Assembly (NCBI RefSeq): GCF_004331035.1
Contig: NZ_SJNT01000007.1
Coordinates: 1 to 64,000, forward strand
Direction of reading: 5' to 3'
Origin: Acinetobacter sp. ANC 4910
GTDB lineage: Bacteria > Pseudomonadota > Gammaproteobacteria > Pseudomonadales > Moraxellaceae
Length of the DNA stretch: 64,000 bases
Part shown: piece after piece, positions 407-22,251 of the stretch
Position numbering within the stretch: the first letter of the stretch is position 1
Layout of the letters: each line of letters starts with the position of its first letter
Notes under the pieces: generated by a model
The model's input: the letters and a program-made list of their open reading frames with translations, nothing else
Databases searched by the model: none
Told to the model about the DNA's origin: nothing
Translations under genes and position numbers: made by a program

Positions 407-1078
407 TTAGTTTGCTTGTTCTGCTACCCAACCCATAAATTTTTGTCGTTCTACTTTATTTGCTTTTTTCCATAATTCAATTAATTGTTGATCTACAGCG
501 ATAGCATTTGATTTGGTATTTGTCGCAACTTGTAGTGTCGAAGACTGTGGGTTTACCACAGGCTGTGCATATACAGCTGGCGGCTGATTGGCGGGCGTAG
601 AATTCTTTTGTGTTAAATCTAATGCCCCACCAAACATGCTACGGCTTAACCATGGTTTTTGTTCTGTATTTGCACCAGTTTGCTGAACCAAAATTTGTTG
701 CTTTTTATCTAAAAGTGCGATTGTAGGTTGCTGTGCGTATTTTTTTGCATCTTCAAACGTTTTTGGTGCATTGATTAAAGCCAGTTGATAAGTTTCATTG
801 TCTTGAAGGCTGGGTGTTTTTAAAGTAACAACACCCGATTTAACGATATCATGCTCACCAGACATATGTTCAAAATACTGAATGTAGCGAACGCTAATGT
901 CTGAACTACCCGCATCTAATTTATAGGCATTATTTTCTGAACGGAATAAACCTGTATTCACTTCTTGATCATTTACCGCAAGAATCTTGATTGCTTCTGG
1001 AGCAGTGATTGTAACCGCTGAAAATACCGAACTACTTACCATTAATGCCGCTGTAGCAAATGTTAAACGTAAAGCCAT
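407..1078 (-). CDS. DUF2057 (YccT-like) secreted protein
   Basis: 223 residues with a clear signal peptide (MALRLTFATAALM...SSVFSA) and a body resembling the DUF2057/YccT family, whose members are periplasmic proteins of unknown function. The open frame extends 30 codons further upstream. I chose the internal ATG at 1078 because it is preceded by AGAGAAGG and starts exactly at the signal peptide. The C-terminal third (Gln/Asn/Pro-rich, about 140-185) looks like a linker and is followed by a short basic helix. It is monocistronic, with its own terminator at 359-386. The family call is by overall resemblance, without catalytic motifs. Confidence 0.75.
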   Translation of the reverse strand: MALRLTFATAALMVSSSVFSAVTITAPEAIKILAVNDQEVNTGLFRSENNAYKLDAGSSDISVRYIQYFEHMSGEHDIVKSGVVTLKTPSLQDNETYQLALINAPKTFEDAKKYAQQPTIALLDKKQQILVQQTGANTEQKPWLSRSMFGGALDLTQKNSTPANQPPAVYAQPVVNPQSSTLQVATNTKSNAIAVDQQLIELWKKANKVERQKFMGWVAEQAN

Positions 1079-20419: not shown

Positions 20420-20463
20420 CAACTGAATTCCCTCCTTCAATGGAGACTGTTAAAGGAATAATT

Positions 20464-20901: not shown

Positions 20902-20925
20902 AAATGGAGCCATTCGGCTCCATTT
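20902..20925 (+). terminator. Intrinsic terminator after HIT gene
   Basis: AAATGGAGCC (20902-20911) pairs with GGCTCCATTT (20916-20925), loop ATTC, followed by more T. Confidence 0.92.
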
Positions 20926-20977: not shown

Positions 20978-21028
20978 GCGTCATCAAACTGTCATTTAGT
21001 TTTCACTTTGCTGTCACAAAGTTTACAG
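20978..21028 (+). promoter_or_regulatory. PhoB-box-like repeat array upstream of porin
   Basis: Seven-bp units at exact 11-bp spacing: GCGTCAT (20978), CTGTCAT (20989), TTTTCAC (21000), CTGTCAC (21011), TTTACAG (21022). The E. coli Pho box is two CTGTCAT-like units 11 bp apart. A -10-like GATACT (21028-21033) starts 10 bp after the 21011 unit, the layout of PhoB-activated promoters where the box replaces the -35. The spacing pattern is seen; PhoB control is inferred. Confidence 0.6.
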
Positions 21029-21135
21029 ATACTGCATAGCAAGTTGGTGAGCTATGTAACGAATTGTACAGAAGCGAGCTGAAAATAAGAGTTTGTAGGC
21101 ACTTGCCATAAAAATCGTGTTTTGGAGAAATCTCA

Positions 21136-22251
21136 ATGAAAAAATTGCTACTTGCTGCAGCAGTCACAACTTTAAGCTTAAACGCAGCACAGGCAGCGCC
21201 AACATTGTACGGTAAACTAAATGTATCGATCGACAATGTTGATAACAAAAGTTTTGATGGCAAGAGTGATGTCACTGAAATCAACTCTAATGCTTCACGC
21301 TTCGGCATTAAAGGTGAAGAAAAGCTAACAGAAAAGTTATCTGCAATCTATTTAGCAGAATGGGCAATCGCAACTGATGGTTCTGGTTCAGATACAGACC
21401 TCAGTGCGCGTAACCGCTTCATCGGTTTAAAAAGTGATGGTATCGGCGCGCTAAAAGTAGGTAAATTTGACTCTTACTTCAAAACTGCTGCTGGCAATAA
21501 TCAAGATATCTTCAATGACCACACAATTTTAGATATTACCAACACCATGTATGGTGAAGAACGCTCAAACAACGTTCTAGGTTTTGAATCTGACCCTAAA
21601 TTACTTGCTGGCTTATCATTCAATGTAATGTTCCAACAAGGTGAAAGTTCTTCTAGTGTAACAGCTGGTTCAACAGGTAATGATGATAAACGTGATGGCT
21701 TTGGTGATGCTGTTTCAGCTTCAGTCAACTATGAAAATAAAGACTTAGGTTTGGCACTAGCTGTAGCAGGTAACTCAGGTATCCAAGGTAAATACAACGC
21801 TTACAGCTTAAAAGATATTTACTCTGATGCTTACCGTGTGACAGGGTCTTATGATTTCAGCACTATTGGTCTTAAAGGTCTTGTACTTGGTGGCTTGTGG
21901 CAACATGCTGAACCTAAAGATGACTTAACTGCTTATAACACGGGTAAAACAGATACTAATGGTAATGCTGTTACTGCAAACTACAAAGGCTTAGAAGAAG
22001 ATTCTTGGATTACAGCAGTAACTTACAAAATCGGTAACACACCTTTTGCTGTAAAAGGACAATACCAATCGGCAAAAACTGCACGTGATGGTCATGACGA
22101 TCGTACGATTGATCAGTATGGTATCGGCTTAGACTACAAAATTAACAAACAAGCACGTTTCTACGGCATCGTAGCACAACAAAAACGTGATTGGTTAAGT
22201 GATGACGACAAACGCACTGTAATCGGCACAGGTATGGAATACAACTTCTAA
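21136..22251 (+). CDS. Outer-membrane porin (Gram-negative general porin type)
   Basis: 371 residues. Signal peptide MKKLLLAAAVTTLSLNAAQA, then the porin start APTLYGKLNVSID, alternating beta-strand sequence throughout, GIKGEEKLTEKLSAIYLAEW, the RNRFIGLKSD...GALKVGKFDS region leading to the constriction loop, and a C-terminal YNF required for outer-membrane assembly. It forms a trimeric 16-strand diffusion channel by family. GGAG precedes the ATG. The PhoB-like array upstream suggests induction at low phosphate and perhaps anion preference, as for PhoE. It is not DcaP, CarO or Omp33-36 by sequence. Confidence 0.9.
   Translation: MKKLLLAAAVTTLSLNAAQAAPTLYGKLNVSIDNVDNKSFDGKSDVTEINSNASRFGIKGEEKLTEKLSAIYLAEWAIATDGSGSDTDLSARNRFIGLKSDGIGALKVGKFDSYFKTAAGNNQDIFNDHTILDITNTMYGEERSNNVLGFESDPKLLAGLSFNVMFQQGESSSSVTAGSTGNDDKRDGFGDAVSASVNYENKDLGLALAVAGNSGIQGKYNAYSLKDIYSDAYRVTGSYDFSTIGLKGLVLGGLWQHAEPKDDLTAYNTGKTDTNGNAVTANYKGLEEDSWITAVTYKIGNTPFAVKGQYQSAKTARDGHDDRTIDQYGIGLDYKINKQARFYGIVAQQKRDWLSDDDKRTVIGTGMEYNF

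Follow-up and report, generated by a model that had tools for sequence, protein, structure and literature searches.

A conserved array of Pho-box half-sites upstream of an Acinetobacter porin gene: a predicted PhoB-activated promoter of the pstS type

Genes and promoter elements at the porin locus

The window considered here, a contiguous stretch of 64,000 nucleotides from Acinetobacter sp. ANC 4910, harbors a porin gene (positions 21136 to 22251, plus strand) that encodes a beta-barrel protein of 371 amino acids with, as judged by eye, a signal-like N-terminus. The upstream neighbor, which marks the locus, is a gene for a HIT-domain protein (PF01230, 20467 to 20883, plus strand; the start codon was chosen by us, the mechanical reading frame starts at 20440). 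Behind the HIT gene, and hence between both genes, lies a stem-loop resembling an intrinsic terminator (20902 to 20925, plus strand). A consensus promoter search finds no canonical −35/−10 pair in the HIT-porin intergenic region, and the gene downstream of the porin is encoded on the opposite strand. Because of the terminator-like stem, the missing consensus −35 promoter and the orientation of the downstream gene, the porin probably forms its own transcription unit with a promoter of the activator type.

Within the intergenic region, positions 20978 to 21017 can be read directly as four heptamers in exact 11-bp steps, GCGTCAT, CTGTCAT, TTTTCAC and CTGTCAC, which we annotate as predicted PhoB half-sites, all on the plus strand. 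Scored with a unit matrix derived from pstS promoters, half-site 1 (GCGTCAT, 20978 to 20984) obtains 9.0 bits, half-site 2 (CTGTCAT, 20989 to 20995) 9.4 bits, the degenerate half-site 3 (TTTTCAC, 21000 to 21006) 2.4 bits, and half-site 4 (CTGTCAC, 21011 to 21017), which adjoins the promoter, 9.3 bits. Half-site 4 is separated by a 10-nt spacer (21018 to 21027, plus strand), AAAGTTTACA, from the −10 element GATACT (21028 to 21033, plus strand). All 61 orthologue promoters examined keep the length of the spacer, and in each of them GATACT stands exactly 10 nt past half-site 4, the distance that the preliminary description of this DNA had given. The same description proposed five units in 11-bp steps, of which four stand with exact spacing. 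The fifth, TTTACAG (21022 to 21028), has six of its seven bases in the spacer, scores −11.0 bits with the pstS-derived matrix and shares one base with the −10 element, and we therefore treat it as spacer, not as a unit. Nor is the number of repeats above the norm, as had been suggested: the promoter of pstS in E. coli K-12 shows the same four-unit plan.

The protein itself is a general porin. It matches PF13609 (Porin_4, 99.6 bits) and PF00267 (Porin_1, 50.1 bits), both above cut-off, and these two are the only Pfam matches at E ≤ 0.001, with no OprP-type domain among them. The closest named match is a porin of A. tandoii with 96% protein identity, equaled by another Acinetobacter strain. An AlphaFold2 model (mean pLDDT 82.9) has 19 strand segments, some of them short; 16 strands is the count expected from the porin family. 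The best Foldseek matches of the model are Omp38 and Omp32 of Burkholderia and PorB of Neisseria, while 1pho, which we take to be E. coli PhoE, is match 35 and OprP does not occur within the best 50 of 283 matches with E ≤ 0.001. The models for PorB and OmpC match the porin weakly, far under their cut-offs. OprP belongs to the Porin_O_P family and is under phosphate-starvation control, and the analogy to PhoE and OprP that was drawn originally therefore has to be divided: it holds for the predicted regulation but not for the protein, and membership in the OprP/OprO family is ruled out by the lack of a Porin_O_P domain match. Net charge was considered as a mark of anion selectivity and discarded, the values being −11 for the porin and −10 for a paralogue (signal cut assumed).

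Likeness to pstS promoters and conservation in the genus

A search of the window with the 18-bp two-unit consensus, allowing up to three mismatches, yields 10 matches versus 6.2 expected, a number reached in 12 of 100 shuffles. Since this is not decisive, a unit matrix was built from 21 distinct Acinetobacter pstS arrays, which were located by their likeness to CTGTCAT and stem from 28 of 30 pstS loci; the remaining two loci are shorter than the others, with no array seen in the stretch taken. No porin sequence entered the matrix. When four units are scored together in a fixed register, the array before the porin obtains 30.1 bits and is the top site in the window on both strands, as against 11.8 bits for the next non-overlapping four-unit site (58580, minus strand), so that the array also ranks first in the weight-matrix scan by which its reading as a PhoB site could be examined. 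A score of 30.1 bits is reached at none of 2,558,440 positions of Markov sequence with the composition of the window and at none of 1,279,220 positions with intergenic composition (together 3.84 million).

The array also corresponds in its layout to that of pstS. The own-genome pstS promoter reads TTATCAT-AAAA-GCGTCAT-ATTG-CTGTAAC-TTAT-TTGTCAT, followed by ten bases and CAAAAT; the pstS promoter of E. coli K-12 reads CTGTCAT-AAAA-CTGTCAT-ATTC-CTTACAT-ATAA-CTGTCAC, followed by ten bases and TATTTT (the −10 label was assigned in this analysis). The latter likewise has four half-sites that recur every 11 bp, the third of which (CTTACAT) is degenerate, and then 10 nt and a −10 element, although it drives the gene of a phosphate-binding protein, whereas the Acinetobacter array drives that of a porin. 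The plan being the same as in both pstS promoters, the porin promoter is of the pstS type. The promoter of phoE in E. coli K-12 has, in contrast, only two AT-rich half-sites, CTGTAAT and CTTTAAC, the last of which again lies ten bases before the −10 element (TAAAAA, label assigned here); it scores 6.7 bits with the pstS matrix. Both E. coli promoters, pstS and phoE, are activated by PhoB. With PhoE the Acinetobacter porin shares the general porin family (Porin_1 also matches), although it is nearer to PorB and beta-proteobacterial porins. OprP and OprO of Pseudomonas resemble it in phosphate-starvation control, established for OprP and predicted for the Acinetobacter porin, but belong to another porin family.

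Two further systems offer partial likenesses. In the available text of PMC3405095, Klebsiella KpnO is a porin with a PhoB site and reported PhoB-dependent expression; unlike the porin considered here, it is an OmpC-type protein with one predicted site and comes from another bacterial order. The Pho box upstream of olsB in A. baumannii, as described in the portion of PMC11828411 at hand, stems from the same genus and has the consensus CTGTCATNNNNCTGTCAT in common, but consists of one box that precedes a gene of lipid synthesis.

Matches to the porin are found in 88 of 99 genus genomes searched, own genome included. Among the matches listed, 62 places with 49–100% protein identity were taken as orthologues, of which 61 were used (in G030 the contig begins 94 bases upstream); one of the 61 is that of G025, whose contig is probably mis-binned, as discussed below. 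In all 61 promoters (59 distinct) GATACT is found exactly ten bases past unit 4 of the best four-unit site. The site is picked by its units alone, and the hexamer is therefore an independent check. Comparison of the orthologous upstream regions thus shows that the spaced repeats proposed at the outset are kept throughout. The four-unit scores have a median of 29.3 bits and range from 12.3 to 31.0 bits, so that the weakest array barely exceeds the 11.8 bits of the runner-up site in the window. Information per column across the 59 distinct promoters amounts to 1.60 bits in the units, 1.07 bits in the spacers between them and 0.54 bits in the 30 bases upstream. Within the same set, conservation reaches 80–100% at positions 2 to 7 of half-site 1, 80–100% per position in half-site 2, 98–100% for TTCAC in half-site 3, and 56–100% per position in half-site 4. 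Ten further porin loci, including those of A. nosocomialis and A. seifertii, all carry the array together with GATACT (27.3–30.5 bits), some of these loci being from genomes already in the 99-genome search. Ten paralogous porin promoters, which are part of the paralogue matches listed in the genus search, carry no such array (four-unit scores −19.7 to −6.2, two-unit scores 2.5 to 8.4).

We note that other Pho-like boxes occur as well. The window contains a second one on the minus strand (1132 to 1149), TTGTCATAAAATTGTCAT, whose two units (19.8 bits) are followed by ten bases and CATAGT and which precedes a DUF2057 gene (about 410 to 1078, minus strand). Elsewhere in the own genome (G000, 3.48 Mb in 24 contigs), a four-unit array of 24.9 bits, one unit of which reads ATGAAAT, is located 53 bases before a membrane-protein-like reading frame of 321 amino acids without Pfam match (L228, G000:C6:74295). 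Two to three units (19.8 and 20.7 bits) precede a phosphate transporter of the PHO4 family (L231, G000:C18:34590), and a two-unit box (19.8 bits) precedes a gene of the thermostable-hemolysin family, PF12261, the next reading frame after which looks AMP-ligase-like by eye (L235/L057, G000:C22:166817). Finally, three units (21.7 bits) stand before a short reading frame that enters a long tandem repeat of the CTTCAAAT type, where a clear gene is not seen (L047/L224, G000:C20:84595).

A second porin type behind the HIT gene

The matches listed also include 19 divergent porins (32–40% identity, partial cover) outside the paralogue set. In the fetched DNA, the HIT gene stands beside 58 of the 61 orthologues, 18 of the 19 divergent porins and none of the ten paralogues. 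Moreover, three of the 11 genomes without a porin match (G002, G069 and G088) have this same second porin following the HIT gene, and the other eight show no porin reading frame within 1.5 kb behind it. The 19 and the three form a second-type set of 22 loci (L098–L116, L237, L238 and L241), whose porin is unrelated to the first. The HIT loci of G031, G032, G061, G066, G067, G076 and G089 lie outside the comparison, the matches of these genomes belonging to neither set. A tree was computed for 44 porins, comprising 24 of the 61 porins of the first type, 18 of the 22 of the second type and two paralogues. In it the second type forms a single cluster with full support on a branch of length 3.07, and its distance from the first type exceeds that of the two paralogues. 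On account of this branch and this distance, we read the second porin as a putative gene replacement and not as a fast-evolving orthologue.

For 21 of the 22 second-type loci it is possible to lay out an array whose register is unchanged and which is followed by ten bases and an ATACT-type −10 element; at L113 (G022) it could not be placed. In 20 of the 22 loci most units resemble TTTAAT, TGAAAT, CTTAAT or TGACTT, with unit 4 keeping TGTC in eight, while at one locus (L114, G001) the units in front of the second porin are PhoB-like (15.4 bits). Since most half-sites of the 20 arrays lack the TGTCA motif, not every member of the genus has a strong Pho array at the HIT locus. With the pstS matrix, 18 of 19 second-type arrays remain under 5 bits; the phoE box of E. 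coli itself scores 6.7 bits, however, and a low score with this matrix does not therefore exclude PhoB. A search of eight genomes for the second-type four-unit array gives a single match each in five, located before the porin, and no match in G000, G007 and G001. The pstS promoters of sampled second-type genomes, G023, G009 and G022 among them, retain PhoB-type units, and hence the specificity of PhoB shows no visible change. The second-type array could reflect, as far as the sequences tell, either control by a different response regulator that has taken over from PhoB, or weak control by PhoB itself, as the AT-rich phoE box suggests. That the slot behind the HIT gene acts as a constant regulatory socket which can receive different porins, with the spacing kept while the half-sites pass from TGTCA to TTAAT, GAAAT or GACTT types, is a speculative and rather doubtful suggestion. 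Two porin families behind one array geometry constitute a natural experiment, in which the half-sites change and the spacing stays.

One genome gives the appearance of an exchange. A midpoint-rooted pstS tree places the five sampled genomes of the second type in a single group that also contains G002 and G025 (support 90/78), although G025 carries a porin of the first type (L077, G025:C64). The HIT-porin contig of G025 is 91% identical to the locus of G081 over 789 bases, compared to 70–78% for six second-type loci. We therefore reject a porin exchange event in G025; the simplest reading is that the contig is probably mis-binned.

The regulator and its implications

The own genome encodes a PhoB candidate that exceeds the cut-off of TIGR02154 (335.7 versus 296.2 bits), and the adjoining gene encodes PhoR (TIGR02966, 416.6 versus 334.2 bits); two other PhoB and PhoR models, NF007546 (PRK10161, 309 of 471 bits) and NF008235 (PRK11006, 369 of 390 bits), stay under cut-off. 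The upstream region of phoB carries a two-unit box of 17.0 bits. Given the rank of the array in the matrix scan, the pstS plan, its conservation in 61 of 61 orthologue promoters, the paralogues without array, and the presence of phoB and phoR, activation of the porin by PhoB is very likely. The initial recognition of a PhoB-activated promoter geometry agrees with the pstS-derived matrix, with the plan of own and E. coli K-12 pstS, and with all orthologue promoters examined.

Other regulators of the OmpR/PhoB family that use 11-bp direct repeats have to be considered, CreB being the likeliest among them. The CreB box, TTCAC-N6-TTCAC, has an 11-bp period and resembles half-sites 3 and 4, whose final C is present in 98% and 88%, respectively, of the distinct orthologue promoters. 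The own genome shows 21 PhoB-model matches, of which nine span nearly the entire model. However, the array agrees with pstS both in its matrix score and in its plan, and of four regulators scanned (at least five more of full length exist) only the PhoB candidate reaches the TIGR02154 cut-off, while none of the four attains the 273 bits required for CreB, their highest score being 221. We regard use of the array by such a regulator as very improbable.

Alternatively, PhoB might bind to the array but repress, or merely modulate, a porin gene transcribed from another promoter, given that PhoB acts either way at different genes. Against this, the array is located ten bases upstream of a −10 element without a −35 element, which is the position found in the PhoB-activated promoters of E. 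coli pstS and phoE, and we hold this reading to be slightly less probable still. Where PMC3978041 deals with starvation for phosphate and the inactivation of phoB, a table row for phoE lists values of 40.39 and 11.72, the column heads lying outside the available text. The view that the repeats are a chance occurrence or a functionless relic could appeal to the frequency of two-unit matches in an AT-rich genome (10 versus 6.2 expected in the window), but deserves next to no credence in view of four units and a −10 element that share one register in all 61 orthologue promoters examined and that have no equal in 3.84 million simulated positions.

We therefore return to activation by PhoB. It is highly probable, as judged from the sequence comparisons above, that PhoB activates this promoter, which is built like that of E. 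coli pstS, and so raises the porin at low phosphate. When phosphate is scarce, PhoR would phosphorylate PhoB, which would fill the four tandem 11-bp half-sites, equivalent to two Pho boxes, with half-site 4 ending ten bases short of the −10 element. PhoB would then recruit RNA polymerase with sigma-70, substituting for the −35 element. The level of the porin would rise and more small solutes, perhaps phosphate or other anions, would reach PstS in the periplasm. The array, its geometry, its conservation and its likeness to pstS can be seen in the sequences, as can phoB and phoR; binding of PhoB, activation at low phosphate and what the pore may carry are inferred, and a role of the porin in the uptake of phosphate or anions is plausible.

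Individual elements of this arrangement have been described. For A. baumannii, the available text of PMC11828411 gives the Pho box upstream of olsB together with phosphate-responsive transcription, the word 'porin' being absent from its main text, and a PhoR-PhoB gene set is reported in the accessible portion of PMC10878099. A PhoB-controlled porin is known in Klebsiella (PMC3405095, as excerpted), and the review PMC4415409, in the part available, describes a repeat unit of 11 nt as well as a promoter in which several boxes occur. No report of a phosphate-controlled porin in Acinetobacter was found in the literature searched, whose coverage is partial, so that this absence is not proven. The array is thus a known kind of arrangement at a place for which no report was found.

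The porin is a concrete candidate member of the Pho regulon, with the context of A. baumannii infection provided by PMC12604733, in its available part. If the predicted regulation is true, phosphate starvation would raise a porin in Acinetobacter, a genus whose permeability is much studied on account of drug resistance, and the uptake of small solutes and drugs could shift in low-phosphate niches.
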